Assembly: GCA_019633425.1 (NCBI GenBank)
Contig: WSUB01000049.1
Coordinates: forward strand, 62,001 to 126,000
Length of the DNA stretch: 64,000 nt
Reading direction: 5' to 3'
DNA from: Tulasnella sp. 424
Taxonomy: Eukaryota; Basidiomycota; Agaricomycetes; Cantharellales; Tulasnellaceae
The first letter of the stretch is position 1. Each line of letters begins with the position of its first letter. The notes beneath the pieces were generated by a model that did no database searches, was not told where the DNA came from, and saw only the letters and a list, made by a program, of their open reading frames with translations. The translations under genes were made by a program, and so were the position numbers. Positions 24,941 through 64,000 of the stretch are shown piece by piece.

Positions 24941-24959
24941 ACGATATCTTTGAACCGAT

Positions 24960-33448: not shown

Positions 33449-33481
33449 CGGGGAACCTTTTCCCGTTAAACCCGAGCCCGT
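33449..33481 (+). promoter_or_regulatory. conserved upstream block of eIF4G copy 1
   Basis: CGGGGAACCTTTTCCCGTTA followed by AACCCGAGCCCG. The first part is nearly palindromic (ACGGGgaac..tCCCGT). The block recurs upstream of the other three long eIF4G copies (44689, 53075, 61782) at a similar distance. It may be a regulatory site or part of an old 5' UTR. Confidence 0.5.
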
Positions 33482-33617
33482 TTGAGAACCACTTCGATGC
33501 CACCCCTCGGGCCTCCCCCTCGACACGTGCTGGAAGTCTGGATCTAAAGACAGAACGAAGATGCTACAAATGGAGAACTTTGAAGATTGACCCCGACGAG
33601 TCGATGCTCACTACGAG

Positions 33618-36600
33618 GTGCCAGGTTGGGAACCAAGGAAAGCTCGAGAATCCACCCCATTTCCTCAACAAAAGGCGCAGGTCGTCGTTCAACTGCTTAC
33701 GAGCATCAAGCACGTCCAATCTTTTGATATATCTGCAGAAAGTTCAGAAACTCAACTTATCAGTCAACTGGCGTATGTAATTGTTACTTCGACACTGCCC
33801 TCTTCATCCACCACCACCCCCCTTCCCTCCGCACGCCCCCGACATCCTCCCCTCTTTAAAGCAGTGAGCAAGCCATCTTCAGTAGCTACCCAGAGGTCTT
33901 CCTCAAATATGAGCGCCGGGGCCATGGGTCTGTTATCGTATCTACAGTCAGTCGCAGTTACCGCCTGGGCCGCTCAATCCCCCTTCTCCACCACACCGGT
34001 CACCGATATACCCACCCACTCCCGCGAGCCCAGCGTTCTATCACCAGTAGTCTCCGTCGAAGATGACGTCAGCGTCTCAAGGGACATCGTCCCCTCTTCC
34101 TCCTCTTATAGACTAGGTGAGTGCTCAGCCTCTCTCCGTCCCCATGTTTGATGCATTTCCGGATCTGACCGGCCGCTCCACACCCGACAAAAATACCCCT
34201 CCTCCCCCATACTCTCTGTTCCCCTCGCATCTCTCTTCTTGTTATTTGCAGCTGGTATCACCTCTCAAGCTATCGAGGCGAATGGCTCTTTAGGCCCTTT
34301 AGCAGTGGCAACGACTGCTGCAGCAGCGCCGCCTGTCGTAAACGGTTCAGCGGGAACCCAGTCTCCGTCCAAGGGCGAAGCGTCCAAAGCATTCGGTTCA
34401 TTACCCACCCAAACGCCCGCTACTAACCTTTCGTCGACGGCAGCTTCTTCCACCACCGCGCCATCTCCAACTCCTTCAAATGCTTCAACCGCTGTGACCT
34501 CATCCGCAGCACGGCCCAAGCGAAAACTCGATGCCAACAAATTATTCCAGGCTCCGAGCTCCTTTACACCCCAACCAACCCCGTCCGCCGCCCCCCGTAC
34601 AAATCCTACTGCTCCCCCGCCAACTGCAGCTGTACCTCCATACCATCATAATGAACCTAATAGTAGTGTCATGGCCGCCCATTTGGCCACCAATAGCCCT
34701 GGTCAACGCTTCTCGACCCTCCCTTCCCCAGCCAACCACGGTTCTCCTTACTATCATCCCTCACCCCAAATGGCCGATCAGCAGCCTGTCGGCGTAGGCA
34801 CTCCCTCCCACTTACGGCCCGTCGCCGGACCCCCGACCGGTGGTCAGCGAAGTCCGAGCGTCAGCTCGAGACTGCCGATTAACGTTGCCGTACCACCGCC
34901 ACCGACCGTAACCGTCAACGGCGCGAGTCAAGGACGAGGTCCTCAGTCGGCTGCGGGTCAACCTCCGGGCCCGCTCACTAGAACGGTGCCTCAGGTTGGC
35001 AGTCCCAGGATAGGACATCAGCCACCTGCTATGCAGCAGCAGCAGCAGCAGCAGCAGCCTGGCCCCGTCCCAGCGCCAGGACAGATGCCTGGTCAACCGC
35101 CGTGTCCTCCTCAGCAAATGCAAACGGGACGGCAGCAGCCTCAGTATCGTTGTTGGGTGAGTTTTCTCTCGGCGGATTAGTTCTTGGGCTTTTGGATTTT
35201 CGGCTGACGACTGGCTTTTTGACCCCTTTCGCAACATCTTCATCCGTCCATGAACTTCTTGTCTACGCCGTCTCTCAAGCCCAATGTACCTCAGCTGTCC
35301 CAACAACAGGCCCTCAGTGGACTTGAGCCAGTTCCGGCCTTGCAACAATCGGAGAACCGATGGACTCCAGCAACACGGAGCAAGCTCTCTCTGGATGAGA
35401 ACTCGGCCGAGTTTGTGGAGCGAAAGGTCAAAGCGCTGTTGAACAAGCTAAGGCTTGAAAACTTTGATTCGGTTTCGAACCAGATCATCAGTTGGGCGAA
35501 CAAGTCGGAGCACGAAAAGAACGGCGCGACGTTGATCTTGGTCATCAAGCTCGTCATTGACAAAGCCACCGATGAGGCTCATTGGTCCGAGATGTACGCG
35601 CGGCTGTGCAGGAAGATGATGGAGCAGATCTCTGTCAACGTTCAAGACGATAGCATCCGGAATAACGTTGGTGAACCAGTCGCTGGTGGTCATTTGTTCC
35701 GCAAGTACCTGCTCAACAGATGTCAGGAGGACTTTGAGCGTGGTCGGTCCCAGAAGGTGTCCGCTCAAGCTGCAGCTGCTCTCAAAGTCGCAGACGACAA
35801 GGCCGCCGCAGATACTGCCTCGAAGGCTGGCGGTGGGGACAACGAGCCCGTCTTGTTCTCGGACGAATACTACGCCCTCCTCAAGGCCAAGCGTCAAGGT
35901 CTCGGTCTCGTTCGCTTCATCGGCGAGCTGTTCAAGTTGCAAATGCTTACGGAGCGTACCATGCACCAGTGTATCCAGACGCTCCTGTCCAAGATCGACA
36001 AGCCCGAAGAAGAGGAGATCGAGAGTCTGTGCAAGCTGTTGACGACTGTTGGTCAAGCTCTTGATACGCCCAAGGCAAAAAGCCATATGGATATCTACTT
36101 TGGGAGGATGCAGATGTTAGCGGATAACCCTAACGTCGTGTCGAGGATCCGGTACATGCTTTTGGTGGGTTTGAGGGTTTGACAGTCTGTTTGGGGGCTA
36201 GTGCTGACGACCCCTTTCTGCGTAGGATGTTATCGAGCTCAGGGGACGCAGCTGGAGACCGAGGAATGCAGTTGCAGGTCCCTCTACGATAGCACAGGTT
36301 CACGAGCAGGTATGTATGAAGTGGAAAGGTCGTCTATGGGGTTGTCATTAATGTTTGATTGTGTGCACAGGGTGCACGGGAGAAAGCAGCATCAGCGCAA
36401 CTGGCGTCCAAGATGGTTCCGATGTCTCGAACCGGATCGCAGCGTGGTCCCCGTAATGCACAAGAACAAGGTTCCGATGGATGGAACGTCGCTGGCCCCA
36501 CACCCGTTCGAGCAGTCCCTATCAAGGCTGGCGATCTCAGCAACTTTGGTAAATTCACCGCCAACTCGGGTCCTCCCAAGACCATGGGCCCGTCGAGCGT

Positions 36601-37702
36601 GTTCAAGGAGGGCGGCAGAAGGCGTGATATTCCCGCACCGCAGGCCCCGCCTGACACGACGGCTCGCACGAAGTTTAACCTCCTTCCCCGCACGGTCTCA
36701 TCGGCCAACACAGACGAGCACAGCGCTGAGGACTCGGACAAACCGGAAAGCGACGAGGAGCAGGTGAACGTCAAAACGTATACGGACTGGGAAGCCACAG
36801 TCAAGGTGAAGGAGGACGTCAAGGAGTTCTTCACCGTTCGGGATGTCAGCAAGGGTAAAAGGAGTTTTGCGGAGATGCCTGACGAATACAAGGGCAAGCT
36901 GGTGCACGGCCTTGCGTCCAGGGCCTTGGACTCGAAGGAGGCCGACGTCAAGCTCGTTGCCGAGTTGTTCGAGAAGGTGGCTGGCAAGTCCTGCTCTCCA
37001 TCGGCATTCGAGGAAGGTTTGGCTGGGATTATCGAGTTCTTGGATGATACAGCGACGGATTTGCCTGAAGCGTACACGTTCATGGCTAGGATGCTCCGAG
37101 GATCCAAGTTGCCCCAGGAGACCGTTGAGTCCCTGGCGGACAAGATCTTCGTGGATGGAGAGCCGTTGGTCAAGCCCAGGGACAAGCTGCTCGCGGCGTA
37201 CGCAGCCGTGGAGAAAGAAAAGCTTCAAGCTCTGTCGCTTTCTCGTACCGCCTCTGTTTCGTGTGTCGCCACTCCCGCGTCTGCGCCGCCGAAACTTGCG
37301 TCCACGGACAGCGGGACGTATCTCGACGGTATCAAGACTCCTTCTATGGAGTTAAATCAAGGTCAGACCAAGGGCAGTAAGGACAAGTGAGTGGTTTCTT
37401 TGATTGCGAGTTAAGTGGGGTTCGGGTTCATGTGCTGATACGCTTGGTCCTATAGGTACGACCGCGACTTCCTGCTGCAGTTCATGGCCATTTTCAAGGA
37501 CAAGCCCGACCACCTCAGCAGCCTCGACGCCCTTAGAGTCCTACGTAGTGCTGGAGGCGATGATAACAGCGGCCCTTATGTCAGATCTACCCCTCGTAAT
37601 CCTCAGTATCCGTACATGCAACCTGAGTGGTCTCCTCCCGTGCAGGACCCTCAAATACATCAACATCCTCATCAACAAGGGCCCTCTCAATACTATGGAT
37701 GA
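33618..37702 (+). CDS. eIF4G-like protein 1: MIF4G and MA3, eIF4E-binding exon moved to the C-terminus
   Basis: eIF4G is the scaffold joining cap-bound eIF4E, eIF4A and the 40S-eIF3 complex. Exons 33618-34116, 34252-35156, 35280-36164, 36226-36309, 36371-37386 and 37456-37702 give 1211 residues with matching phases. Order: Ser/Pro/Ala/Gln-rich N-terminus with AAPPVVNGSAG and poly-Gln, MIF4G (about 514-770, from FVERKVKALLNKL to RIRYMLLDVIEL), NFGKFTANSG linker, MA3 (about 937-1073, KEFFTVRDVSKGKRSFAEMP). Last comes YDRDFLLQFMAIFKDKPD, a canonical YxxxxL-hydrophobic eIF4E-binding motif at residue 1131, only 80 residues from the end. In standard eIF4G this motif lies before MIF4G. The ancestral start is GTG at 33864; ATG 33618 or 33909 must serve instead. 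The acceptor used in copy 2 at 46015 (CGCAG) reads CGCAA here, so the join to 35280 uses another AG. Confidence 0.75.
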
Positions 37703-39240: not shown

Positions 39241-39905
39241 CAAAGCCAAAATATTGAGTCCGGTCTGATCTGGTCAGACAACATGCTGAATCACGACCCA
39301 GTCAGATTCTGGAATAGTTAGCTATGCCTTCTCTTTCCCGACGCGAGCTGCTCAATCCAACGAGCATGTCAGAACGGAGTTGGATTACAGTGAGGAGAGA
39401 ACCAAGTCGGACCGAAAAGCAAAAGAATTTATTTTTATGCCGCGACGAGTTTGGCCACAACCGAATGAAGCTGCTGTAGAGCGTTTCTGTCAGGTATAGT
39501 TAGCCGAGTCGGAAACGATGCTACGGGGCTCGTGGGTCTAGTTTCAGGCAGAGGTAGTATTGCTACTGTCGGTCGTCTATCAAGATTCGAGGGAGAGTCG
39601 TGCGTTTGGATTCTCTGGGTGATGCGATTTATGGTATTCGTTGCCGCGACTCACGGATGACGCCTGCGCGGGCAAGTCAAGGCCCATCTTGGAAAGTAGC
39701 GCCTGTTGTATTAGTAATGATGAGGTTTGAAGGGTCATGGCCTTGGCTTTGGTCATCAGGTTTAAAAATGACGGAGGTGAGCAAGCTGTCGTGGGATAAG
39801 TCGAGCGCCAGAAGTTCGAGTCCTGGTCTCTCTATTCCCCCAACCTCGTCGCAACCACTAGCCACCCTATCGACGCCCTTAGTTGCAACTCTTTTTACCT
39901 TCACC
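39241..39905. repeat. 5' flank and leader of family X copy D
   Basis: Shared with the other copies. The T-arm-like AGTTCGAGTCC lies at 39813-39823. From 39770 on it is almost identical to the copy C leader. Confidence 0.6.
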
Positions 39906-42900
39906 ATGAAGCTTCTCTCTATAATCGCAATCATTCTCGCCTTCGGGCCTACCGTTTTCGACCTGGCTTTGACTGGTCGAGGGGGTAAGGAAATACTGCT
40001 TCCCTTCGTTCCCTGAGCCTCTCTGATTTCCCCTTCTTACAGTCAGTCGACCCACTCAAACTTGCAATACCGACTGGGCCTTAACCCAGTTCCATACCTT
40101 GCACATTGGCAAGCCAAGCCTTGCAATTCCGCCAACTGGTTTGGCGGGTGCAGTGTTGGCGGGGTCGGGCCACAACAATCAGGGTAAGCTTCGCTTCGTT
40201 TCCTTTTTCGGTGCAGCTTCCTCGATCGTCGTTTCTCGCTCTCTCCCGGCCATCACCGCTGACTCTCTGCGTGCTCTCGATGAAAAATTTTCAATGCAGA
40301 CCCGACCGTTTAGATCTGGACCACAGTCCACGTCACCTCACGCCGTGCACTCGCCAACGTCGACAGCTTCGTCAACAACTTCAACCGTTGTGAGCTTGAT
40401 CAGCAATGGCGCTACATCCGTAGCTGGTGGAGATACAACTCGGGAAAGGTCATCGAAGACGTCCTCATCGTCTACTTCTACTCCCTGCCATTCCTTACAG
40501 TCGTGTTGACCATCTGGCGGAAGCGAGTTCTTCGCCAACGTCGTTCGGAGTCTAAACGCGTGGGTCTTATTCCATCCGCCATCTCGAGCTTGATTCCTGA
40601 CAATCGTTTATTACATAGACTACTACTTTGGCTCAACCAAGCCCGGTATTGTCCACCTTCGTCGCCATCACGTCTCTCGCGAGGACCAACAGCATCCAGA
40701 CAACCAAACGGAACGTCCCTACCTCCAGCTGCACCAAGAGGGACAACAGCATCGTCGCCATCGGGGGCGCAGCGACTCCATCACTCGGCCACATTCTTCG
40801 CCACCCCGCGTTCGACTTCCGAGGCTGCCTCCGAGTCGTATTCACGCCCACCGAAACCCCTGCCGAGTTCATTCCTCCGCAGCTTTTGGGCGCGTTGACC
40901 GCGTATACCGGGACCGTCAGCGTCTACAAGGGGCTTCGCATAGGGCGAGAGATGAATTATTTCTCTTCACTCTCCTTGTACCCAGGTTCACTGAATACCC
41001 TGTCGATTTCCTTCTTCAGCAGGCTTCAGGAGCACCGACCGCGCCTACCAGGATTCTCAACGTCTTCAAGGCACTTGGTTCTGGACCCAAGGTAAATGAC
41101 TTTTGTTGACATGTGGTGCTTGATGCTATACTCATGGTTTCTTTCTAGAGCTCAAGATCTCAACGGATTGTCGTTATCACGCTCGTCGTGCTACTGGAAG
41201 GCTTCGTCATCATCCACTATGAGGCGGTCGATGGTATTGCCTTCTGGACTATCACCCTTATTCTCAATCCTGGAACCACCTGTGCCTCGGCAGGCTCCAG
41301 ACATGCGGGCAACATGTATCGCATCGTCCCCAAGCGTACCATAACATTCCCCACTCGTGGTTTGATCGAGGCCGGCTCTCCTCAGTCCGAGATCCCCTCC
41401 ATCTGCTCACCGAACCCTCGAAGGCTATACCGCTCTAACGGTATGGCATTGCCCCTCTCCTCGCTGGCCCCAGAGAACGATCGTCGGGCAGGGAAACCAC
41501 TACCCTCGCACGAGCTGGTCGTCCAAGAAGAGGGCTCCCCGGAGGAGGAACGAGTTTCTGCCAGGGTCTCCCCGTCCTTCATCTCGATACATTCGGTTGA
41601 ATGTGTGCTCCTCATGGGCTGCTCCTTTATCGGCGAGGCACTCCACTGGTCGATTCGCTTCTTCCCTCGGCAAGGTTACCACATTTCTCAGCGTCCCAAC
41701 AACCACGGAACCTTCCCCACTCAGTCCAATCTTGCCGACAACGCTCTCTTCGAGGCTCTATGGCGGGAAAAATTTGTCCATACCGGTATTCTCGTCCTTG
41801 ACGTTCCAGGCGGAAGAATCAAGGGGCCGCTTGCTACACCTGAGGTCGACATCACCGCGATTCCTCTTCCCCCTTCCATGCTAGAAACCCCAATCGCGAC
41901 CACCATGTTCGACGACTCAAAAGCTCCATGCTATGTACTTGTTCCTTTCCAACGGGTTGTAAACTTTGAGCCTGCAGCCCTGGAAGTGATGGCCCGTCCT
42001 CAGGACAAGAGCACGATCGAACGCGTCCGGATCAGCAGAAGATCGTATGGTCATTCTCTCAAGGCAACATTCATATCCCACCCTCTTTCGAGACCCAGCT
42101 CGACGGTCATGAGGATTTCCGCCATAACCGACCTCACTCTTCACGGTACTTGTCCATACGCGTGGTCCCATGCTACGTCAAGCTCGGCAACTCCTTTCCA
42201 CACCGTCTCGCACGTCGAGCCCGAGACCCATGTGGGACTGGCTCAGTCCATGAATCTGAGCGACGCGAGCAATATGGATCGATCCGAGGAAGAGGATATC
42301 AAAGACAGCAACACCGAGGACGCCGCCTTCATCCCTCTGCCGCCCTCTCGACCGACTTCTCCAGAGGCTGAAGAAGTCAACCACACAGTCGGAGAGGAGT
42401 TCCTCCAAGCCGATCTCATCCCTCTTCCCGAGTCTCGCCCCGAGTCTCCCGAAGTACACGGCCCTGACCCCTCAGCTCGCAGCTTGGACGTGTATCAGTA
42501 CATCGCCGCTTTAGCCCATCAATACCTCAGCCTTCGTGCGACGCTATTCTGGCCCATACTTCCGGAAGAGTCTAGAGCAATTCGGGCAGAATTGCGGCCG
42601 CGGCTGTCAGGTTTGAGGGAACGAGCTCTGATACGTCATGGTCTTGGGTCGCCTGCCCCAGTCGAGGCAGAGCTAGAGGTGCAGCAGCAGCAGCAGGAGG
42701 AGGAGGTGATGGTGGAGGAGGAAGTGCAGGAGGAGGGACAGGAGGAACAGGATGAGGAGGAACCGGGGGATGATCTCGAGATTGATCCCGCGGCAGAAAA
42801 TCAAGACGTTGGTGGGTATTTCATCATTCATACTCTGTTATCCTCAGGCGCCAATACTGATTTTTGTTGCCATTCAGGCAACGTTGGGGACGCGTCCCGG

Positions 42901-42912
42901 CGCCCTTTTTGA
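39906..42912 (+). pseudogene. family X copy D, nonsense in exon 3 and lost donor
   Basis: Exons 39906-39984, 40043-40183, 40300-40559 and 40619-40951, a small fifth exon at about 41023-41094, and 41149-42912. Two lesions are seen. One is TAG at 40311-40313 in exon 3, where copies C, E and F have TCG. The other is AT in place of the GT donor at 40952. The final 1764-nt exon is fully open: membrane segment VITLVVLLEGFVIIHYEAV, IYRIVPKRTITFPTRGLIEAG-type core, the C/D-specific region, one QYIAALAHQYLSLRATL module and Glu-rich repeats. It is the best guide to the uninterrupted C/D-type architecture. It may have been recently inactivated, since the rest is intact. Confidence 0.7.
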
Positions 42913-43800
42913 CTCAAGATCCCGATTGCAGTCATCCGCCACATTTCAACGAACACCATGTAAGTCCGTCTCGTCCTTCCAGCTCGACCCACCCGATCCA
43001 AGGTAGAATCCAACGAAGCCGAACCGAACAACGGAGCAACGCCACCCTCACTCCTCACAGGAAACCCATTAACCCGGCTCTCCGGGTGATGGGAACATCC
43101 AGTCGGTATGTTATTTTTTCTTTCGCCTGATCTAAGCCCCCAGTACAGCGTTCCAGAGCGTAACACGTAGCGGCGAGCGCGGATGATGAAGAGTCCGAGG
43201 GACGGAGGAAAGAAATCCTCCTCACCCCTCAAGGACTCCATCGATCCGCACTCGCGATCGGTTACGGCGCATTCTGAAGTCGCTGACTGTGGATGAGGCG
43301 TTCCGGACGTCCTTCCCTACTTTGGGGAAGGCTTTCGAACGACCTTGGCGCGCGTTCGTCTGTTGGCTATTCGTAAATGCGAGTAGGACGGACGGACGTC
43401 CCCTGCCATGTGTAGCGGGGATAACCCCCATGGTATGGTGAGATCAGGCCGGTTGGATGTTCTTTTTTTCGTGAGGTCGGTGAGTTTGGTTGTTTGCTTT
43501 TTTGTATGGGATGGCTTCCGTTCGGACTTTCGCTTTTGGGCTGGGAGGTGAACGTTGGATAGGACTTGTCTGGCTGGAATTGGTGCTTTGTTTGAGTTGG
43601 GTCGATGATCCTTGGTTGGAGAAGGCGATGTGCCTTTCGTTTGGTGTGCTATAGTATAATTTTCCGTACTGTACAAATTTCCTCTTTCTATTATATTTAT
43701 TTCTCTCTTTTTGGGTTGGGTGTTTACCGAAATCGTACGGCGGCGTTTAGCTGCGGCATTTCGGACTTTCACAAGACGTCTGACAATCTCAAAATTGTTC
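42913..43800. repeat. family X 3' block, copy D
   Basis: Over 90 percent like copy C by eye. It holds the open stretch QRSRTEQRSNATLTPHRK and LRVMGTSSR, and the core at 43412. Confidence 0.65.
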
Positions 43801-44140
43801 CCCTGTATTTGCCCCTCCCCGTCCTCTCCTTGCCCTCCGCATCTCACTCTGACATCTGCAGCTGTCATCAACTTTGGGACTATCGATGGAGACAGCTGTC
43901 TGATACCTTCAGCGGCAGCAACGACTGCCATAGCAAGCACTTTAAATGGTTCAACCGCCGCGACCTCATCCGCCGGACCCTCTCAGCAGATGCAGACGGG
44001 ATGGAAGCAGCCTCCGTATGATGGTTGGGTGAGTTTTCTGCCGGATTATTTTTACTTGGATTTCCCTGACGGCTACTTTTCCTTTTCCACAGCAAGCTCA
44101 ACATTCTCATCCGTTCATGATGCACCAATCAAGGATCGTC
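43801..44140 (+). pseudogene. eIF4G-like 5' fragment (43.8 kb)
   Basis: After ACATCTGCAG at 43861 comes an open exon VINFGTIDGDS..PSAAATTAIAS, then STAATSSAGPS, then QQMQTGWKQPPYDGW with a GTGAGT donor. It is a short version of the second exon of the long copies, with the middle deleted. The next exon is replaced by a CBM1 tail at about 44140. Confidence 0.7.
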
Positions 44141-44725: not shown

Positions 44726-45076
44726 TGAGAACCGCCCTCGGACCTCCTTCTCGACACGTGCTGGAGGTCCGGATCTACAAATGGGGAGCTTTGAAGATTG
44801 ATTCCGACGGGTCGATGTTCGCTACGAGGTGCCAGGTAGGGAACCAAGGAAAGCTTGAGAATCAACCCAATTTCCTCAACAAAAGGCGCAGGTCGTCGTT
44901 CAACTGCTTACGAGCATCGAGCACGTCCAATTTTTTGATATATCTGCAGAAAGTTCAAAAACTCAACTTATCAGTCAACTGGCGTACGTAGTTGTTACTT
45001 TGACACTTGCCCTCTTCATCCACCACCACCCCCCCTTCCCTCCGCACGCCCCCGACATCCTCCCCTCTTTAAAGCA

Positions 45077-48500: not shown

Positions 48501-48900
48501 GTATGTATGAAGTGGAAAGGTCGTCTATGAGGGTGTCATTAATTTACTCTCTATAATCCACATAGGCCCGCTTCTTCAACGACGGCCGTTATTAGGGAAT
48601 CTTGGCCTCTGATTCGCTCTTGTTTGGTTGAGCCACTTGGTGTTCTTCGGTTCCAACTTTCTACTTTTCTGATTGGCTATCGATCCCCCTCGATCCACTC
48701 GGCCTTCGGTCCCGAGCCATCACCACCAATTCCATTTGTCCCCCAGAAGCTAAATACTGTATTTTTATGCTATTATAGCTGGACACCAAGCTGGTTTGAA
48801 TTTTATTCTCACTTCGCGTGATGTCCGACCTTCAAAACTTTCCCGTAACTGCATTTTGGTTGAACCACCTACCCACTCTTCATCGAACATAAAAGCTCTT
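48501..48900. other. junction between eIF4G copy 2 and an X fragment
   Basis: Similarity to the eIF4G intron ends near 48540. The rest up to 48900 is unique and shows no gene. Confidence 0.4.
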
Positions 48901-53074: not shown

Positions 53075-53106
53075 AACGGGGAACCTTTCTCCGTTAAACC
53101 CGAGCC
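53075..53106 (+). promoter_or_regulatory. conserved upstream block of eIF4G copy 3
   Basis: AACGGGGAACCTTTCTCCGT followed by TAAACCCGAGCC. AACGG(G)GA and TCTCCGTT pair as an imperfect palindrome. Confidence 0.45.
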
Positions 53107-53487
53107 CGTTTTCTGACTTTCGTTTTACGTCGTTTGTGCGAGCTTGAACCGCCACCCCTCGGCTCCTCCACCTCGACGCGTGCAGGCAGTCAAGACCGGC
53201 TGACGACGTACAGACGGAGAACTTTGAATATTTGACTCTGAGGAGCCGATTTTTGTTACGAGGTACCAGGTGGGGAACAGAACAAACAGTCCACCCCATT
53301 TCTTTAAAAGGCACAGGCCGTCGTTCAACCACTTACGAGCATCGAGCACGTCCAACCTTTCGATAGAAAGTACAAAAGACATTTGCAGTCCAACTTATTC
53401 ATTCAATTAGTTTATGTACGACTTACTTTGACACTCTTGCCCTCTCCACCCTCAATACGCCACTAACACCCTCCCCTCTCTACAGCA

Positions 53488-56061
53488 ATGAGCAAGCCTT
53501 CTTCAGTAGCTACCCAGAAGCCTTCCGCAAATACGAGCGCCTGGGCCAACGATCCTCCATCCCAGCTACAGCAAGCTACCACCAGTCCTTCTCGTTCCCC
53601 CTCATCCACCAAACTGGTCACTAATAAGCCCACCCACTCCCGCAAGTCTAGCATTCTTTCACCAGCAGTCTCTGTCAAGGATGGCGTGAGCGTCCAAGGG
53701 GTATTGTCCCCTCTTCCTTCTCTCATATATCTTGTGAGTGCTCCGAGTTGTCCCTCTGTCTCCATGCAATCGATGTATTTCGGATCCGGCTGACTATTCC
53801 ACGCCCGACCTCGCCCCTTACTCTCCGTCTCCTTTCCGTGTCTCTCTTTGTCTGCTCAGCTGGCATCAACTTTGGGACTATCGATGTAAACGGCTCTTCC
53901 GGCCCTTTTGGCCTTTCGGCAGCGGCATCGACTGCCACAGCAGCGCCGCCTGTCGTAAACGGTTCCGCGGGAACCCCGCCTCCGTTCAAGAATATCCAGG
54001 CCACACCCCCACCGCCCAAAGCATTTGGTTCGTTACCAGCCCAAGCGCCCTCTACTAATCCATCGTCGACGGCAGCTTCTGCGACTGCCGCTCCATCTGC
54101 GACCCCATCAAATTCTTCAACCGCTGCGACCTCATCCGTCGCACCGTCCAAGAGAACATTCGATACGAACAAATTATTCCAGGCTCCTACCTCTTCTGCA
54201 CCACGCAAGGGAAAAGAGGAACGAGAACGCAAGAGGCGCGAAGAGGTCGCCATTTGCAAGAGCGAGCCTGACAACCTCAGCAGCCTCAACTCTCTTGGAA
54301 TCAAGCACGGCGCTTCAGACGATGATAACAACGGGCCTTACTTTGGATCTACCGGTCGTAGCCAAGTTCGTTGGATAGGCACCATGGGCCCACCAGCGGA
54401 GAAACGTCCGGTTTCTACGAACGTGGGACTCGGTCTCAACTTCCCAGGCAGCAAAAGCGGCTCAGCGCCGTTCGTCAGCATGGGCAACTTCTCTTCTACG
54501 GCGTCGAGGATAACAAGCGAAGAGCGGCTTGCTCCGTCTAATAATATAGACAGGGCTGTTAGCGGTGGTTCAAAGTTTATACGCAACATCCCGATGAGCA
54601 TGAGTTCGAGCCAAAGTGGTGTCGGTGGTATTGGTGGATCTAATGCCGTCCGGCTCAGTTCAAGAGAAGCGAATAGGCTAAGATCTCAGCGCGGAAGGGA
54701 GCGGAAGGATTTGCTCAAGCATAATACAACTCGGCCCTCCCAACAGCAGCAACAACAGGCTCTCCCCGGACCGCTCGACCTTTTTTCGACTCAGCAGCGG
54801 GCGCCTCTTGCGCCCGATTTGCCGAGCGCGTTGCCGTTTGCGAGGAAGATCGACGATTTGGACAGCTTGACGTATCCCGAGGGTATCAAGACTCCGTCTG
54901 TGGAGTTGATTCAAGATCAGACCAAGGGCGGAAAATACAAGTGAGTGATTTGTTTGATTGCGGTTTTGGTAAGGTTTGGATTCGTGTGCTGATACGCTTA
55001 GTCTTTATAGTTACGACCGCGATTTCCTCCTGCAATTCATGGCGATTTGCAAGGACAAGCCTGACAACCTCAGCAGCCTTGAAGGCCTTGGAATCGAACG
55101 TGGTGCTGGAGGCCATGACAACCGTGGCCCTTTTTTCGGATCTGGTGGACGTGCTCAGCCTCATCGGATGACCTCTCTGAACATGGGACGAAGAAAGCGG
55201 AAGGATTTGCTCAAGCCCAATACAACCCAGCCCTCCCAACAGCAGCAGCAGCAGGAACAAAAGGCTCTCCCCGGACCGCTTGACCTTTCTTCGACTCAGC
55301 AACGGGCGCCTCTCACGCCCGATTTGCCGAGCCCGTTGGCGTTTTTGAGGAAGGTCGACGATTTGAACAGCTTAACGTATCCCGAGGGTATCAAGACTCC
55401 GTCGGTGGGGTCGAATCAAGATCAGGCCAAGGGTGAAAAGTACAAGTGAGTGATTCCTCTGATTATGCTTATGTTGGGGTTTGGATTCGTGTGCTGATGC
55501 GCTTGGTCCTGTAGGTACGACCGCGACTTCCTGCTGCAGTTCATGGTGATTTGCAAGGACAAGCCCGACAGCCTCAGCAGCCTTGACGCCCTTGGAATCG
55601 AGCGTGGTGCTGGAGGTGATGATGCCAACGGCCCTTCTTTCGGATCTACTGGTCGTAACCAAGGTCGTCGGATGGGCACCATGGGCCCACCGGCGAGGAA
55701 TCGTTCAAAGTTTATACGCAACATCCCGATGAGCATTGGGCCTTCGAGCCAAGGTGACGTTGGTGATGTTGGTGGACCTAACGCTGTCCCGCCCCGTCCA
55801 AGAAAAGCGAACAGGACAAGATCTCAGCGCGGAAGAAAGCGGAAGAATTTGCTCGGGCCCAATACAACCCAGCCCTCCCAACAACAGCAGCAGGAGGAAC
55901 AACAGGCCCTCCCCGGACCGCTTGACCTTTCTTCGACTCAGCAGCGGGCGCCTCTTACGCCCGATTTGCCGAGCGTGCTGGCGTCTGCGGGGAAGATTGA
56001 CGATTTGAACAGCTCAACGTATCCCGAGGGTATCAAGACTCCGTCTGTGGAGTTGAATTAA
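53488..56061 (+). CDS. eIF4G-like protein 3: tandem eIF4E-binding exons, no MIF4G or MA3
   Basis: The 5' exon (53488-53733) keeps the ATG of MSKPSSVATQKPSANTS, but a one-base deletion near 53694 breaks its phase with the next exon. In-frame translation could instead start at ATG 53748. Exons 53860-54940, 55011-55445 and 55515-56061 join cleanly. The first has INFGTIDVNGSSGPF and AAPPVVNGSAG, then KGKEERERKRREEVAICKSE in place of an eIF4E motif, then PDNLSSLNSLGIKHG. The second and third each open with YDRDFLLQFM.ICKDKPD (residues Y, L and L of the YxxxxL-hydrophobic motif intact) and end with LTYPEGIKTPSV and a KYK or N end. There is no MIF4G. A protein with two eIF4E-binding sites and no eIF4A or eIF3 docking would compete with eIF4G, like a 4E-BP; that role is inferred. 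Confidence 0.65.
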
Positions 56062-56340
56062 GATCATACCAAGGGCGGAAAGAACAAGTGAGTGATTTCT
56101 TTGATTATGGTTTTGGTGAGGTTTGGATTCGTGTGCTGATACGCTTGGTCCTGTAGGTACGACTGCGACTTTCGGCTGCAGTCCATGGCGATTTCCAAGG
56201 ACAGGCCCGACAACCTTAGTAGCCTCGACGCCCTTGAAATCGAGCGTGGGTCTCATAACCGTCTCTTCTAGTGATGGAATTATTTCTATTGAAGAGATTC
56301 CAGCGTGGCAGAGACTGCAACATCCCCAATTCTGAAGTAA
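56062..56340 (+). pseudogene. fourth eIF4E-binding exon, decayed
   Basis: The third repeat exon should run to a GTGAGT donor at 56088, but a TAA at 56059 stops it. After an intron ending CTGTAG at 56156, a further copy (56157-56271) reads YDCDFRLQSMAISKDRPDNL. The key Leu is changed to Arg, and it ends in a TAG. It shows that the exon was amplified at least three times here. Confidence 0.75.
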
Positions 56341-56589: not shown

Positions 56590-57635
56590 TTATAATTGAA
56601 ATTTGAGTAGATCAAGCTTGTGTAGGTATCCATACAATCCTGGCGTGTGTTAGTCTCGTTTGTGACGAGGTTGCGGAACCAACTGTCAGAAAGAAAGTCA
56701 TTGAAACTCTATTTGCCTTCATCGATTTGACTAGGAGGAAGGCTCAAGCTACTAATCAGTAAATATTTTGTTAAAAGAGAGATCCAAAGGTGTAAGTACC
56801 TATATCTTCCTCTCTTGAGCTTCCTTTCTCGAGGACCGCGGGGGTGCATCGCTGATACCACGAAACTCGAGTCATTGCCCCGGGTCTAGGTTCCAAGCCT
56901 TCTCCTTCGTTGCTACTCAATCACTGCTCTAACGACCGCTTTATTTATTCTTTTGGCTGGTTGCTGGTGACCAATACGGTTCCAAGAACACTCGATACTG
57001 GTATTCAAGTTAGCGAATTCAAGCGTTCGAACTGGAAGCTGGGCTTTTCTAGTGCTCCACTATCCTGGATCATTCTTCCAGCTAGACCAATATTCTGAAG
57101 CACATGGAACTCTAAGCTATTGTTATAGACTTTACATGACGTTTTCGAGGTGCTCAATTCACTTGATGCACCCATGATCGGGGACGAGGTCAACGAACCC
57201 CACCAGCAAAATAGTTTATTTTTATGCCCCAGCGAGTTTTGGTCACAGCCGAATGGAGCCGCTGTAAGGCATTTCTGTCAGGTATAGTTAGACGTCCATC
57301 ACGGATTTGAGGGAGAGTCATGCATTCTGATTTGTTGGGTGACACGATTTATGTTAACTCGTTGCCGCGACTGACTGATGACGCCCCGGGGGGGGGGGCA
57401 AGTAAAGGCCAATCTTGGAAAGTAGCGCCTGTTGTGTTGGTAATAATGAGGTTGGAAATGCGTCATGGTCTTGGCTTTGGTCATCAGCTTTGAAAATGAC
57501 GGAGGTGAGCAAGCTGTGGCGGGATAAGGCGAGCGCCAGAGGTTCGAATCCTGGTCTCTCTATTTCCCCCCAACCTCGTCGCAACCACTAGCCACTTCCT
57601 CGACACTCTTCGTTGCAATTCTCGTTACCTTTACC
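56590..57635. repeat. X-upstream flank module and leader, before copy F
   Basis: Third copy of the distal module (to about 57140), then the leader with GGTTCGAATCC at 57541-57551. An 11-base G run at 57385-57399, directly after CCCC, is unusual and not present in other copies. Confidence 0.65.
57516..57565 (+). repeat. tRNA T-arm-like motif in the X leader (best copy)
   Basis: GTGGCGGGATAAGGCGAGCG resembles an A box of Ser/Leu tRNAs, and GGTTCGAATCC is a perfect B box. CCAG and CTGG can close a short stem around it. The spacing is too short and no acceptor stem forms, so it is not a tRNA. It may derive from a tRNA-related SINE. Other copies are at 9257, 20350, 26387, 39813 and 50234. Confidence 0.4.
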
Positions 57636-60055
57636 ATGAGATTTATTACCATCATCGTTCTGGTTCTGGCCTACGGGCCTGTCATTTTTGATCTCGCCGT
57701 AACCGGCCGAGTGGGTAAGGATACACTACTCCCCTCCGTTCCCCGACCCTCTCTGATTTTCCCTTCTTACAGTCAACCGACCGACCCAAACATCGACCAC
57801 GGACTGGGCCTTGGCCCAGTTCTACACCTCGCACAAAACCAAGCCAAGCCTTGCAATTCCCCCAACCGGTTTGGCGGGTGCAGTGATCACGTTAGACCAC
57901 AACAATCAGGGTAAGTTTCCTTTTTCGGTGCAGCTTCCTCGATCGCTCGTTTCTCGCTCTCTCCCGGCCATCACCGCTGACTCTCTGCGTGCTCTCGATC
58001 GAAAGATTTCAATGTAGACTCGGCGGTTTCGATCCGGACCACAGTCCACGTCACCTCACGTCGTGCACTCGCCAACGTCGGCAGCTTCGTCAACAGCTTC
58101 AACCATCCTCGACTTGACCGGCAATGGCGGTACATCCGTGGCTGGTGGCAATTCAACTCCGGAAGGGTTATCGACCTCCTTCCATTCCTGGCCGTGATAT
58201 TGACCATCTGGAAGAAACGAGCTACGGAAGACCTTGCTAGATTCGTTGGTCGACAACTTCTGGGTGCCCCGACCACGTGTACTGGAGTTGTCACCGTCTT
58301 TGAGGAGCTTCGCCCAGGACAAGAGGTAAATTATTATTTTCTGGCTCTCCCGGTCTCCTATTTCACTGAATATCTTGTTGGATTGTCTCTCCAGCTGGTT
58401 TCAGTAGCACCGACCGCGTCTAGCGAGATTGTCAGCGTCGCGGAGGCGCATGGGTCGGGCCTAACGGTAAATTACTCTCTTGACTTTTTGTGCGAAATGG
58501 CTTACTCATTGCTTATGTTTAGGGCCCGAACTCTCGACGGATCATCGTCGTTGCGCTTTTGGTTTTCCTGGGCGGGTTTGTGATCATTCACTATGAGGCG
58601 GTCGATGATCGTGCCGTCTGGACCATCACCATCATCCTCAATCCCGGACCAAGCTCTTCGTCAGCCGTTTCCCGACGTGTGGACAACATCTACCGGGTAG
58701 TCCCTAAGCGCACCGTCACGCTCCCCACCCGTGGTTTAATCGAGGCTGGACCCCGAGTCGTTCGTCAGGGAGGGGACCCACTGACCTCACACGAGCAGGT
58801 CGCCGTACCAAGCGTCTCCCCGAGGCGACGGCCAGGATCTACCTCCTCTTCCTTTACCACTATCCACTCGCTAGAAGGGGTCCTCGTGATGGCTTGTTCC
58901 TCCACCGGCAAGGGCCTTCACTGGTCCATCCAATTTTATCCCTTCCAACACTACCACATCTCCCAGCGGACCGACAACGACCACGACAAAGAGGAGTTGG
59001 TTCAAGCGGACGTTGACATTCCTCTCCCCGAGTTCCATGGCCTTGACCGCTCGACTCGCAGCCTGGACCTCTATCAGTACATCGCTGGGTTGTCACACCA
59101 ATTCCATAGTCTTCGCGCGATGCTGGTCCGCCCCCTACTTCAGGAAGAGGCAAAGGCAATTCGGGCGGAATTGCGGCCGCGGTTGCGCAGCTTGGGGGAA
59201 CGGGCTCGAGAGCGTCGTGGTCAAGAGCAGTCGATTCAAGGTACGGCTTCGGGTATCGAGCCTGAAGCCCAGGTGGTTCTGGCTCCAACAGTGAACTTTG
59301 ACGATGGACATGAAGGTGGTGAAGCAGAGGAGGAGGAAACCGAAGGCAACGATCTCGTGGAACCCGCCTTGGTCCCTCTTCCGCCCTCTCGACCCGCCTC
59401 TCCAGAGGCCGAAGACCTAGCCGAAGATGAGCTCCTCCGAGCCGATTTCTTCCCTCTCGCCAGCTCTCGCCCTAACTTTCCCGAATCCCAAGCCCTTGAC
59501 CACTCAGCCCGCAGATCGGACCTCTCTCAGTACATCGCCGCACTAGCCCGTCAATACCTTGATCTTCGCGCGACGCTGGTCCGGCCCTTACTTCCGGGAG
59601 AAGCTAGAGCAATTCGAGCGGAATTGCGGCCGCGGCTGGGCAGCTTGGCGGAACGGGCTTGCGAGCGTCGGGGTCTTCCGACGTTTACCTTGGTTGCGAC
59701 GGAGCCAGTCAATGCGCAGGAGATAGTGGAGCAGGTCCATGAGGAGGAGGTCGGCGGGCAGGTTCAAGAGGTGGAGGTAGACGAACAGGTCCATGAGGAT
59801 GAGGCAGACGGGCAGCTCCATGAGGAGGAGGCAGACGAGCAGGCCAATGACGAGGAGGTGGACGGACAGCTCCATGAGGAGGAGGCAGACGATCAGGCCG
59901 ATGACGAGGAGGTGGACGGGCGGTTCAATGACCAGGCAGCAGACGTATCCCGCAAGAGCAAGAAGCCTCATTGTGGAGGAAAGAAAACCCGTACGAGGAA
60001 ACATAAGCACCAGACGGACAAAGAGGAAGAGGCTGGTCCCTCCAGAGAACATTAA
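57636..60055 (+). CDS. family X orphan membrane protein, copy F (longest B/E-type form)
   Basis: Exons 57636-57714, 57773-57910, 58018-58325, 58395-58466 and 58523-60055 give 709 residues with all phases matching and no lesion. Residues 1-22 are a hydrophobic leader. TDWALAQFYT and KPSLAIPPTG lie in exon 2; RRALANVGSFVNSF, QWRYIRGWWQF and LLPFLAVILTIW (about 126-140) in exon 3. A membrane segment VVALLVFLGGFVIIHY lies at about 206-222, then DNIYRVVPKRTVTLPTRGL. Next come two copies of a 50-residue module (QYIAGLSHQFHSLRAMLVRP.. and QYIAALARQYLDLRATLVRP.., each ending in a GERARERRG-type segment). Last are acidic 9-mer repeats and a basic tail. It is probably a secretory-pathway or plasma-membrane protein with a large acidic cytoplasmic or extracellular tail. 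Function unknown. Confidence 0.72.
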
Positions 60056-61095
60056 GACGTTGGTGAGTATTTCATCGCTCATTCCTTTCTCAGCCCCAAG
60101 CATTGGCATCTAACTAGTCAACCGCCCAGCATCGGTCAAGGACCCCTATGCCACTTTCGACCCAAGCTCTATATCACATCGCCATTTCCAACCCGTCTTG
60201 TCCTTCCAGCTCAACCCACCCGCTCCAAGGTAGAATCCAACGAAGCCGAACCGAACAACGCAGCAACGCCATCCTCACTCCTCACCAGAAAACCATTAGC
60301 CCGGCTCTCCGGGCGATGGGAACATCCAGTCGGTAAGTTGTTTTTTTTCTTTCGCCTGATCGAAGCCCCCAGGACAGCGTTCCAGAGCGTAACACGTAGC
60401 GGCGAGCGCGGAGGATGAAGAGTCCGAGGGATGGAGGAAAGAAATCCTCCTCACCCCTCAAGGGCTCCATCGATCCGCACTTGCGAGCAGTTACGGCGCT
60501 TTCTGAAGTCGCTGACTGTGGATGAGGCGTTTCGGACGTCTCTTCCTGCCGGGAAAAGGCCTTCGAACGACCTTGGCGCGCGTTCGTCTGTTGGCTATTC
60601 GTAAATGCGAGTAGGACGGACGGACGTCCCCTGCCATGTGTAGCGGGGATAACCCCCATGGTATGGTGAGATCAGGCGGGCTTGGATGTTCTTTTCTTCG
60701 TGAGTTCGGTGAGTTTTGGTTGTTGGCTTTTTTGGTCGGGGATGGCCTTCGCCTGGATTCTCGCATTTGGATTGGGTGGCGAACAGTGGGTGGGGCCTTT
60801 CTGGCTGGGATTGGCACTCGTTTTCAATCGGGTCGGGGTTCCTTGAACCGTATACGTCGAAGCTCCTTTCGCTTGGTGCGCTCTTACTCGGGTTTCCTGT
60901 TCCTTTCTTCCGCATTGAGTTGAGGTTGTTGTCCGTGTCGTTTGTGTCTCTACTTGTAGCGCTTTAGTATTGTCCTAGTCTTGTCTACGTGTAAATAGAA
61001 TAATTCATTCTCCGGTTTTCGTTTCCCAAAGTCCACAGCAGCGCACACATCCTAATTAGAGATTTACGGAAGGACCTAAGTTAGACCATCCAAGA
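60056..61095. repeat. family X 3' block, copy F
   Basis: Starts GACGTTGGTGAGTATTTC after the TAA. Open stretch QRSRTEQRSNAILTPHQK and LRAMGTSSR followed by a GTAAGT donor. Core at 60640. It ends with TGTAAATAGAATAATTCATTC and CACACATCCTAATTAGAG, as in copy E. Confidence 0.65.
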
Positions 61096-61781: not shown

Positions 61782-61816
61782 ACGGGGAACCTTTTCTCCG
61801 TTAAACCCGAGCCCGT
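61782..61816 (+). promoter_or_regulatory. conserved upstream block of eIF4G copy 4
   Basis: AACGGGGAACCTTTTCTCCG followed by TTAAACCCGAGCCCG, as in copies 1-3. An inexact copy (AACGGAACCTTGAAGG) precedes it at 61746. Confidence 0.45.
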
Positions 61817-62200
61817 GCTCTTTTGGGCTTGAGCCGCCCTCACGCCACCATCCTTGTCTAGTCTGGACATACCGATCGACGAAGCCTACATCTTTGGCGG
61901 TCCTACAGAGGGCGAAACTCCGAATACTTGACTCCGACGAGTCGGTTTTTGTTACGAGGGGCCAGGAAGGGGAGCCGGGAAAGCGACCGCTCCATTTCCT
62001 CAAAATTAGGCGCGGGTCGTCGTTCAACGGCTTACGAGCATTGAGCTCGTCCAACCTCTTGATATATCTGCAAGAAATACAAAAAAATCACAGTCCAACT
62101 TATTCATTCAACTAGCGTATGTACGACTTACTTTGACAACTCTTGCCCTCTCCACCCAACCCACCCCACACGCTACTGACACCCATCCCTCTCTACAGCA

Positions 62201-64000
62201 ATGAGCGAGCCCTCTTCAGTAGCTACCCAGAAGCCTTCCTCAAATACGAGTGCCTGGGCCAACGGTCCTCCATCTGTCAGTCCCTCTCCTTCCCCTCCTC
62301 CACCACACCGGTCTCTAACATACCCACCCACCCCCGCAAGTCCAGCGTTCTTGCACCAGCAGCTTCCGTCAAAGATAGCGTGAGCGTCCCGAGGGGCATC
62401 GTCTCCTCTTCCTCCTCTCATAGATCTTGTAAGTCTTGGAGTCGCTCTCTCTGTCCCCCTTGCGATCGATGTATTTCGGATCCGACTGACTGTTCCACAC
62501 CCCACAAAAATCCCCCTCCTCCTCCGTCCTCTCCCTCCCCCCTTCCGTGTCTCTCTTTGTACACGCAGCTGGCATCAACTTTGGGATTATCGATGTAAAC
62601 GGTTCTTCCGGCCCTTCAGCGGCGGCATCGGCTGCCACAGCAGCGCCGCCTGTCGTGAACGGTTCCGCGGGAACCCCGCCTTCGTCCAAGGACGCCCAAG
62701 CCATACCCCCGCCGTCGACTAGCGAATTGATCTCCCGCGCAACCTCTGGAAGCAACATGTTCTCCCTTCTTGGAGCCGGTGGTGCTGAAGCCGTGGAGAT
62801 GTCTCAAACCGGATCGCAGCGTGGTGGCCGTAACGCACAAGAACAAGGTCCCGATGGATGGAACGTCGCTGGCCCCACACCCGTTCGAGCAGTTTCTGCC
62901 AAGGCTGTCGATCTCAGCAACTTTGGCAAGTTCACCGCCAACTCAGGTCCTCTCAAGACCATGGGCCCGTCGAGCAGGTTCAAGAAGGACAGCAGGGGCC
63001 GTGATACTCCCCCGCCGTCGACGACCGGATCCATCTCCCGCGCAACCTCTGGAAGCAACATGTTTTCCCTTGTTGGAGCCGGTGGTGCTGAAGCTGTGGA
63101 TGCCATGCCGAAGAGGACTCCACCTGGAACCACTCGCAAGCCGAGCATTGATCAAGCACCGCAGGCCCCGCCTGACACGCAACGCGGTAGAGCGCGGAAC
63201 GATACGCTCAAGCCCAATGCATCTCGGCTGTCTCAACAGCAGCAGCAACAGCAACAGGCCCTCAGGGGGCTCGAGCCGGTTGCGGCCTTGCAACATTTGG
63301 ATAACCGATGGGATCGGAACAGGATCCGGGTGGATGAGAACTCGCTCGAGTTTGTGGAGCGAAAGGTCAAAGGACTGTTGAAAAGGTTGACGCTGGAGAA
63401 CTTTGATTCGGTCTCGAACCAGATCATCAGCTGGGCGAACAAGTCGGAGAACGAAAAGAACAGCGCGACGATGATCTTGGTCACCAAGCTCGTCTTTGAA
63501 AAAGCCACCGACGAGGCACATCGGTCCGAGATGTACGCGCGGTTGTGCAGGAAGATGATGGAGCGGATCTCTGTCAACGTTCAAGATGATAGCATCCGAA
63601 ACATCGATGGTGAACCGGTCGTTGGTGGTCATTTGTTCCGCAAGTACCTGCTCAACCGATGCCAGGAGGACTTTGAGCGTGGTTGGTCCCAGAAGGAGTC
63701 CGCACAGGCTGCAGCTGCTCTCAAGGCCGCAGACGACAAGGCCGCAGCAGAGGCTGCCTCGAAGGCTAGTGGCGGCGAGGACAACGAGCCCGTGTTGTAC
63801 TCGGACGAATACTACGCCCTCCTCAAAGCCAAGCGTCAAGGTCTCGGTCTCGTCCGCTTCATCGGCGAGCTGTTCAAGTTGCAAATGCTTACGGAGCGTA
63901 TCATGCACGAGTGCATCAAGAAGCTCCTGTCCAAGATCGACAATCCCGAAGAGGAGGAGATCGAGAGTTTGTGCGAGCTGTTGATGACTGTTGGTCAAGC
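62201..64000 (+). CDS. eIF4G-like protein 4 (runs off the window): MIF4G without eIF4E-binding exon
   Basis: The 5' exon from ATG 62201 (MSEPSSVATQKPSSNTSAW) is cut by an internal deletion that shifts frame near 62275; the expected frame resumes to the donor at 62429. From the acceptor at 62568 the frame is open to the window end. It reads INFGIIDVNGSSGP and AAPPVVNGSAG, then a segment normally found between MIF4G and MA3 in copy 1 (GSQRGGRNAQEQG, DGWNVAGPTPVRAV, LSNFGKFTANSG). This is flanked by two copies of ISRATSGSNMFSL.GAGGAEAV. MIF4G follows (FVERKVKGLLKRL onward). No YDRDFLL motif lies before MIF4G. The layout recalls vertebrate DAP5/p97, an eIF4G relative without an eIF4E site; that parallel is inference. 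Whether MA3 or a C-terminal eIF4E exon follows lies outside the window. Confidence 0.7.

Follow-up and report, generated by a model that had tools for sequence, protein, structure and literature searches.

Cap-dependent initiation has eIF4G as its core scaffold, a protein usually depicted with a single order of domains. A window of 64,000 nucleotides from Tulasnella sp. 424, by which we mean the whole stretch of DNA analyzed and in whose coordinates all positions are given, holds several eIF4G-derived genes that differ in domain content and order. How did they arise within one locus, and are their products likely to be made and used by the cell?

These genes, U1 to U4, lie in tandem at 33.7-65.4 kb (Table 1), with the 4E site of U4 falling just beyond the window end. 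The first-pass annotation of this DNA had described four copies and given the domain contents and orders of each, and both are borne out in the sequence: MIF4G-MA3-4E in U1, 4E-MIF4G in U2, 4E-4E without MIF4G in U3, and MIF4G before 4E in U4. Its view of a single tandem locus of such genes also stands, and the frames are largely open. It had, however, treated the four as paralogues of equal standing, and this view is not supported. At the end of the array, 13-19 kb beyond the window, lies an intact collinear eIF4G gene that is absent from that annotation. All introns of this gene are GT-AG, and its product matches yeast eIF4G in the PDB (2vso, E=8e-49), the same chain to which the U1 MIF4G aligns; 2vso is an eIF4A complex. 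Judged from sequence comparison, U1-U4 are derivatives of this parent that originated by rearrangement, with copies of a gene family X interleaved among them. Outside this array, C428 has another eIF4G-like locus, which is more diverged and contains three MIF4G domains.

Table 1. Features of the eIF4G-derived array and its surroundings (window-relative positions).
Feature	Position	Strand	Remarks
5' eIF4G fragment, more diverged (exon 1, intron 1, exon-2 start)	17165..17602	+	72% nt identity to parent
Gene family X copy	20092..22884	+	frame 20808-21461, no Pfam match
Gene family X copy	26150..29779	+	frame 27193-28965, no Pfam match
5' eIF4G fragments, more diverged	29800..30219	+	74-77% nt identity to parent
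U1, E1-E2-MIF4G-E5-MA3-E3tail-4E	33656..37702	+	modelled 1114 aa; annotated FRC04_008614 (P0020)
U1 MIF4G exon	35280..36164	+	Pfam MIF4G E=1.8e-45 (frame 35223-36179)
U1 MA3 exon, in-frame fusion to exon-3 tail	36371..37386	+	Pfam MA3 E=2.6e-5 (frame 36359-37387)
U1 terminal 4E exon	37456..37702	+	YDRDFLLQFM intact, then stop
Gene family X copy	39558..43720	+	frame 41149-42909, no Pfam match
Short eIF4G fragments (around exon-2 start; exon-2 end)	43814..44120	+	
U2, truncated, E1-E2(deleted)-E3 without K/E coil-4E-MIF4G-E5, no MA3	44871..48595	+	modelled 1015 aa; FRC04_008616 (P0005)
Gene family X copy	49977..52670	+	
U3, E1-E2-linker-4E-4E, no MIF4G	53295..56249	+	intact 4E sites in exons from 55011 and 55515
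U3 4E exon, phase 2/phase 2	55011..55445	+	435 nt; flanked by two intron 3 copies
Gene family X copy	57295..60882	+	frame 58523-60052, no Pfam match
U4, E1-E2 part-E6 part-MIF4G-E5-coil-4E	61992..65441	+	P0014; in-window portion 61992..64000
Parent eIF4G	77327-82758		C393:139327-144758; six exons, 1669 aa, FRC04_008622

The modules of eIF4G (eIF_4G1 PF12152, MIF4G PF02854, MA3 PF02847) are unevenly distributed among the copies. The MIF4G HEAT domain is present in U1, U2, U4 and the parent, with 90-93% amino acid identity to the parent in the three copies (90% in U2, Pfam E=7.8e-45), and is absent from U3. MA3 occurs in U1; U2 has neither coil nor MA3, and U4 likewise has no MA3. Every copy has one or more Y-x4-L-phi sites within the conserved eIF_4G1 segment, U3 having two; the site is putatively eIF4E-binding. 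In a genome search the eIF_4G1 profile scored above the cut-off for the parent, U1, U2 and U4 but stayed below it at the two U3 places, and with hmmscan it was below the cut-off in the one frame each of U2 and U3 that was scanned. The order 4E site, MIF4G, MA3 is kept by the parent and, without MA3, by U2; it is not kept by U1, U3 and U4. Therefore U1 and U4 were filed as permuted derivatives, and U3, with its doubled 4E site, as an eIF4G-derived protein rather than as an eIF4G.

Each copy is damaged toward its 5' end, at the start codon or in exon 1. In U1 and U2 the start codon ATG became GTG; the next in-frame ATG of U1 is at 33909, and U2 has also lost its intron-1 acceptor (CAG to CGG). 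The 3' end of U2 differs in the database gene model. U3 and U4 have each lost 1 nt from exon 1. If the conserved exon-1 donor is used, U3 is out of frame, and a candidate donor 4 nt downstream reads through; in U4 the shifted frame runs into a stop, and counted from exon 2 the gene is open for 883 residues. Both deletions are of single bases in C runs and could be base-call errors. The second 4E exon of U3 is predicted at 55515-56061, with a stop at 56059, behind which lies a third, degenerate 4E exon. In U4, fragments of E6 precede MIF4G, and E5, the coil and the 4E site lie beyond the window end. The U1 MIF4G exon has a new acceptor, CTCAAG/CCC, in phase 0, and for U4 an acceptor CAG/TGT is predicted before 64337. 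In U1 and U4 alike the replacement acceptors are in phase, and the fusions are in frame with usable splice sites.

By what mechanism could such genes be formed? The annotation had proposed shuffling of a symmetric 4E exon. The 435-nt exon of U3 with phase-2 introns on both sides is real, and it is symmetric because a tandem duplication spanning intron 3 puts the same intron on either side of it. As a mechanism for the array, shuffling failed: 33 of the 34 distinct blastn segment ends lie within exons and not within introns, where intron-mediated exon shuffling would have its breakpoints, and this candidate was rejected. None of the 34 ends cuts MIF4G or MA3 (P=7e-4 if independent). With ends that are exonic and outside the folded domains, duplication, deletion and fusion fit better. 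Probably an eIF4G segment and gene X were first duplicated head-to-tail, and deletions across low-complexity coding sequence would then have fused the pieces. A deletion in two successive 4E-MIF4G-MA3 units could give the MIF4G-MA3-4E order of U1, and a shorter repeat of E3tail-intron 3-4E-linker could give the 4E-4E array of U3.

A rival explanation is decay, in which a segment with X and part of eIF4G was amplified, and the eIF4G pieces were constrained for a while and are now released as useless pseudogene passengers. We regard this as a serious possibility, somewhat short of an even chance. Gene X was indeed co-amplified with the eIF4G pieces and is multiplied elsewhere in the genome too, further 5' eIF4G fragments litter the locus, and the 5' damage in four of four copies counts in the same direction. 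The frames argue otherwise. Among exonic indels 28/30 are multiples of three, versus 20/65 non-coding ones (Fisher p=6e-9, the count covering 18/20 blastn blocks). Nonsense changes number one, against about 20 expected (P about 3e-8 to 9e-8) in a model with half of the exonic differences neutral, where the stop-making fraction of U3 comes from 5/7 blocks, yet is applied to all 369 U3 differences. By these two counts the frames have not been broken at the neutral rate of pseudogenes, and the in-frame fusions and in-phase acceptors of U1 and U4 point the same way. Divergence from the parent is 0.089-0.166 in exons versus 0.164-0.223 in non-coding sequence; for U3 the two values are 0.166 and 0.223, a ratio near that expected if a copy of a constrained parent had evolved neutrally. 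Repeats A and B of U3, a comparison in which the parent is not involved, give an omega of 0.46 (0.24-0.76), an interval that excludes 1 and speaks against passengers, and the tails of repeats B and C give 0.65 (0.25-2.30). The dN/dS test named in the first-pass annotation gave a divided answer. Pairwise omega to the parent, with exon 1 left out, is non-neutral (U1 0.33, U2 0.27, U3 0.34, U4 0.30), but for MIF4G alone, where pairwise omega had suggested clear purifying selection on the copies, unique substitutions put most of the signal in the parent lineage (omega 0.06), so that this claim was weakened. On the copies' own branches MIF4G omega is relaxed, at 0.56 in U1 (p=0.08), 1.15 in U2 (p=0.69) and 0.62 in U4 (p=0.2); therefore recent constraint on them appears weak or absent, which counts in favor of passengers. 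Unique substitutions at the start of U1 exon 2 comprise 1 silent versus 11 replacement changes. At 167 near-invariant MIF4G columns U1 has 12, U2 8 and U4 6 changes versus the parent, again in favor of decay, and the canonical gene of sp. 417 has 1. MIF4G differences avoid columns conserved in 102 database MIF4Gs (U1 p=0.034, U2 0.0019, U4 0.01). In the MIF4G tree, U1, U2, U4 and the canonical genes of sp. 417 and sp. 427 branch from one unresolved fork, and therefore the tree does not date the array; the tips of the copies are 0.077-0.10 long versus 0.008 for the parent, 0.009 for the sp. 417 gene and 0.055 for the sp. 427 gene.

Plant eIFiso4G and animal eIF4G2 are models for isoforms that initiate on their own mRNA subsets, and the copies might by analogy be working isoforms of this kind. 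U2 with its canonical 4E-MIF4G order and high MIF4G identity would suit such a role, and U1 and U4 retain both modules in altered order; since strong MIF4G constraint is confined to the parent, U3 has no MIF4G, and U2 and U4 have no MA3, we consider it improbable. That the array is an assembly artefact can hardly be credited at all. The region is repetitive, and the two C-run frameshifts may be miscalled bases, but exonic divergence of the copies from the parent is 9-17%, the array sits on a 241 kb contig, two contigs are on record for P0003 and likewise for P0020, and counterparts of U3 (P0123) and U4 are very likely present in a second assembly, of Tulasnella sp. 425. The exonic divergence together with this second assembly led us to reject the artefact.

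The explanation we favor, and to which we give about an even chance, is that four largely in-frame copies arose, likely by tandem duplication followed by deletion and fusion in disordered linkers, and that their products would compete with eIF4G for eIF4E and eIF4A. Because the frames are largely open, the altered scaffolds are likely made by the cell. U3 may bind eIF4E and yet recruit neither eIF4A nor the ribosome, acting as a 4E-BP-like brake made from eIF4G. U1, U2 and U4, in which MIF4G constraint is relaxed, would act as truncated or permuted scaffolds that could tune the canonical factor rather than replace it.

Is the Tulasnella array exceptional among fungi? The literature search found no paper combining Tulasnella and eIF4G and, among the matches listed, no report of a comparable eIF4G array. 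The annotation had presented eIF4G as normally present once or as a pair, in a fixed order; a 4E match lies C-terminal to a MIF4G or MA3 match in 10/212 database relatives, which include U1 and U4 themselves and perhaps some merged gene models, and therefore the fixed order seems to be broken elsewhere in Agaricomycetes. Peniophora P0196 has the order MIF4G-MA3-4E, comparable to U1. In T. calospora P0190, MA3 is fused to the exon-3 tail, and Piloderma P0126 and Athelia P0127 have two 4E motifs and no MIF4G. Pleurotus pulmonarius P0021 reads as a head-to-tail eIF4G pair, unless two gene models have been merged there. Tentatively, and with more doubt than belief, we suggest that mushroom-class fungi repeatedly make eIF4E regulators from eIF4G via local duplication with deletion and fusion in the disordered linkers, giving permuted scaffolds and MIF4G-less two-site proteins. 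If so, such regulators arise from eIF4G in fungi that lie outside the only subphylum said to have p20 and Eap1, and the Tulasnella locus would hold a whole series of them beside their parent. With an intact gene beside four rearranged derivatives that are largely in frame, and with similar architectures known from other Agaricomycetes, whether the order of 4E, MIF4G and MA3 matters becomes directly testable. The locus also lets one ask whether translational brakes arise by stripping a scaffold or by inventing a separate 4E-BP.

According to PMC7139794, p20 and Eap1 are restricted to Saccharomycotina, and around 15% of yeast proteins carry the 4E motif, so that having the motif is not in itself proof of binding to eIF4E. 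By motif content U3, with two intact putative sites and no MIF4G, resembles yeast p20/Caf20 and Eap1 and the animal 4E-BPs, and would share the 4E-BP working principle; it differs from them in being built from eIF4G itself and in having two sites. Like eIF4G2/DAP5/p97, U3 is an eIF4G relative short of one eIF4G module. DAP5 has no 4E site and keeps MIF4G and MA3; U3 is the reverse, keeping 4E without MIF4G. The usual route to circular permutation is to duplicate, fuse and truncate, and MIF4G-MA3-4E is the product expected of a head-to-tail eIF4G pair after deletion. Unlike circular permutation in general, the whole series is found here in one locus, beside the intact parent.

Past the window end, the tandem array of rearranged eIF4G copies (U1-U4) closes with an intact gene, here called the parent, which begins 13 kb beyond the window on a 241-kb contig (C393) of the 46.8-Mb genome. 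All its introns are GT-AG, it has no internal stops, and its order is canonical: N-terminus (exons E1/E2), K/E-rich coil, eIF4E-binding (4E) site YDRDFLLQFM, MIF4G and MA3. Against the yeast eIF4G chain of 2vso, its 4E-MIF4G exon gives a match with E=8e-49. By protein search, the parent matches FRC04_008622, U2 FRC04_008616 and U1 FRC04_008614, all of Tulasnella sp. 424; the database protein of the parent, P0003, begins within the exon 2 region of our model. Contig C428 carries three MIF4G domains with 66-73% nucleotide identity to the parent (blastn); in this second eIF4G-like locus, pairwise omega between the two later copies is 0.82. A genome profile search gave further MIF4G matches at C9, C2, C427 and, weakly, C430. 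Matches to the eIF4E family (PF01652) lie on three contigs, which is ordinary, since PMC11791286 reports a range of 1-5 eIF4E genes for a basidiomycete species.

Features of the eIF4G locus; positions without prefix are relative to the window (C393:62001-126000), segments are in parent (C393) coordinates from blastn of parent against locus
Feature	Position	Details
BAG-domain frame	881-2782	634 aa, E=7e-10
Additional eIF4G 5' fragments	17165, 23642, 29800, 43814	blastn with parent
Direct duplication	17588-20028 and 23642-25073	1.15 kb, 93%; downstream of eIF4G exon-1 fragment; third copy of unit at 81%
X with eIF4G pieces	20092-60882, and beyond window end to ~76400	co-amplified; acidic repeats
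Open frame	30853-32874	674 aa, after an eIF4G 5' fragment
U1	33656-37676	139107-140707, 142648-144032, 144177-144748, 142013-142293, 140710-140787
U2	44871-48544	139111-140049, 140466-141268, 141766-143744
P0005 extension	48420-49570	beyond E5
U3, first segments	53295-56249	139107-140044, 142196-142695
U3, later segments	53295-56249	141918-142329, 142638-142700, 141918-142337, 142514-142707, 141918-142253
U4	61992-65303	139108-139856, 144024-144115, 143813-144201, 142624-143928, 141390-142302
Parent eIF4G	C393:139327-144758	six exons, 1669 aa; own exon model
Second eIF4G-like locus	C428:53922-63240	loci L015, L016; three MIF4G domains

The 5' starts of U1-U4 agree within 4 bases of one parent position, about 220 bases upstream of the ATG, and this common start was recovered by self-comparison of the whole stretch, which is free of the query-end effect. 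Segment ends are blastn ends, precise to a few bases at best. MIF4G and MA3 together occupy 19% of the gene, and none of the 34 distinct ends falls inside either (P=7e-4, presuming independent ends, which tandem repeats are not). The first-pass annotation had proposed insertion through a symmetric 4E exon. Such an exon, of 435 nt with phase-2 introns on either side, is indeed the first of the two 4E exons in the 770-aa U3 model, but insertion by this route disagrees with the segment ends, 33 of 34 being exonic. The introns on both flanks of the U3 exon derive from parent intron 3 by copying, and the exon's symmetry arose because a tandem duplication spanned that intron. We infer that duplication came first and would have been followed by deletion and fusion within low-complexity linkers, a single route that would yield permutation (U1, U4), truncation (U2) and repetition (U3).

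The 5' end is damaged in all four copies and the remainder is open. In U1 and U2 the ancestral ATG is now GTG, and a later in-frame ATG could serve; U2 has also lost the intron-1 acceptor. The U1 model has 1114 aa after splicing, in the order MIF4G-MA3-4E; the sequence at its ancestral exon-3 acceptor is now CGCAA, and a replacement AG lies exactly in phase (CTCAAG|CCC). The U2 model (1015 aa) ends nine residues past the E5 exon. Exon 1 of U3 is short by one base, so its frame requires splicing from a donor 4 nt beyond the conserved site. U4 exon 1 has also lost one base, and therefore the frame from the ATG ends at residue 61; from exon 2 on, 883 residues are open to a stop at 65439, with the first methionine at residue 63 and an in-phase replacement acceptor after E5. 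The database U4 model, P0014, excises part of exon 1. That of U2, P0005, carries on with acidic repeats plus a basic tail resembling the proteins of X, a second gene family; it may represent a fusion of eIF4G with X or a model in which two genes were merged.

How much constraint do the copies retain? In 18 of the 20 blastn blocks of the parent-versus-locus map, 28 of 30 exonic gaps are multiples of three, against 20 of 65 non-coding gaps (Fisher p=6e-9). Divergence in U1-U4 is 0.116, 0.091, 0.166 and 0.089 in exons and 0.207, 0.184, 0.223 and 0.164 in non-coding sequence. With only half of the exonic differences taken as neutral changes that arose on the copies, the expectation is 19-20 stops; read in the parental frame, the copies have one nonsense change, at the end of U3. 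Omega to the parent (in-frame blocks, exon 1 excluded) is 0.33 [0.26-0.42] for U1, 0.27 [0.21-0.36] for U2, 0.34 [0.26-0.48] for U3 and 0.30 [0.22-0.39] for U4; for U3 repeat A against B it is 0.46 [0.24-0.76], and for the tail of B against that of C 0.65 [0.25-2.30].

Omegas from sequence-unique substitutions, however, count against reading the copies as constrained: in MIF4G they are 0.06 for the parent, 0.56 for U1 (p=0.08), 1.15 for U2 (p=0.69) and 0.62 for U4 (p=0.2), and in the 5' part of exon 2 0.35 for the parent (p=0.15), 5.02 for U1, 0.40 for U2 (p=0.064) and 0.35 for U3 (p=0.0036). At 167 near-invariant MIF4G columns (at least 95% conserved among 102 database MIF4Gs), departures from the parent number 12 in U1, 8 in U2 and 6 in U4, against 1 in the canonical gene of sp. 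417 and 9 in that of sp. 427, eight of these beyond its record's end. The differences of the copies nevertheless prefer sites outside these columns (p=0.034, 0.0019 and 0.01 for U1, U2 and U4). A fair reading is that constraint is relaxed and the frame kept open, the copies being neither clear pseudogenes nor strongly conserved genes.

Copies of X are interspersed among U1-U4, two lie between U4 and the parent, and X is also found on at least five other contigs (C4, C167, C224, C37, C301); four scanned X frames had no Pfam match. The 1.15-kb duplication apparently joins an eIF4G 5' piece to unrelated sequence. A Pfam scan of the 674-aa frame gave no match; its end, with HCEAQLA, may point to a fungal deaminase-like family.

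U3 and U4 are very likely present in a second assembly as well: P0123 (FRC05_011698, Tulasnella sp. 425) agrees at every residue with positions 380-769 of the U3 model, and the contigs recorded for it and for P0014, the U4 protein, have the same length, 156881. We sorted 212 relatives, drawn from the best 120 of 2485 and the best 120 of 142 matches (overlapping), with three home-made profiles, keeping matches of at least 40% profile length. The order 4E-MIF4G-MA3 occurs in 128 and 4E-MIF4G in 25; by profile sorting alone, 11 records are 4E-4E-MIF4G. A 4E match lies C-terminal to a MIF4G or MA3 match in ten of the 212, two being U1 and U4; among the rest are P0130 (Pholiota), P0196 (Peniophora), P0172 (Daedalea) and P0190 (T. 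calospora). P0196 reads MIF4G-MA3-4E and P0172 MA3-4E. In P0190 MA3 is joined to the exon-3 tail near the U1 junction, and the record stops where the 4E exon would begin, so that no 4E motif is visible in it. For P0021, P0013, P0069 and P0012, the gene model may have merged neighbouring genes.

Seven of the 212 have at least two 4E matches and no MIF4G match at the 40% cut-off. Among these, P0129, P0194 and P0208 have a MIF4G start at the record end, and the second 4E match of P0134 spans 36 of 88 positions only; two intact 4E motifs without MIF4G are found in P0123 (U3), P0126 (Piloderma croceum) and P0127 (Athelia). Among the matches listed, 13 species have at least two family members on contigs of equal size, which suggests linkage within each: sp. 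424, sp. 425 (if P0014 belongs there), T. calospora, Cylindrobasidium, Pleurotus pulmonarius, Pholiota conissans, Sanghuangporus baumii, Athelia psychrophila, Daedalea, Armillaria fumosa, Amanita muscaria, Scleroderma citrinum and Somion occarium. A protein kinase domain adjoins eIF4G modules in P0006 and P0128 (both Tulasnella sp. 417) and in P0165 (Marasmius crinis-equi), which could be real fusions or merged models. P0004, P0009, P0019 and P0207 (one from Tulasnella sp. 408, the others from Sanghuangporus) have a tandem MIF4G pair after a single 4E site.

Gene duplication with domain rearrangement is already known. We found no description of a graded series of this kind in eIF4G next to the intact gene, together with its comparable cases in other genomes. 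A full-text literature search found no paper containing both the words Tulasnella and eIF4G, and none of the full-text matches listed, judged by title and abstract start, concerned a duplication of eIF4G or a reordering of its domains in Tulasnella or other Agaricomycetes; most subscription papers lie outside this scope. As to function, U1, U2 and U4 would serve as altered scaffolds under weak constraint, while U3, judged from its sequence, would sequester eIF4E and act as a brake. This role is our hypothesis rather than a transfer from a known protein, because the eIF4E interactors p20 and Eap1, according to PMC7139794, belong to Saccharomycotina only and neither is a plain inhibitor.
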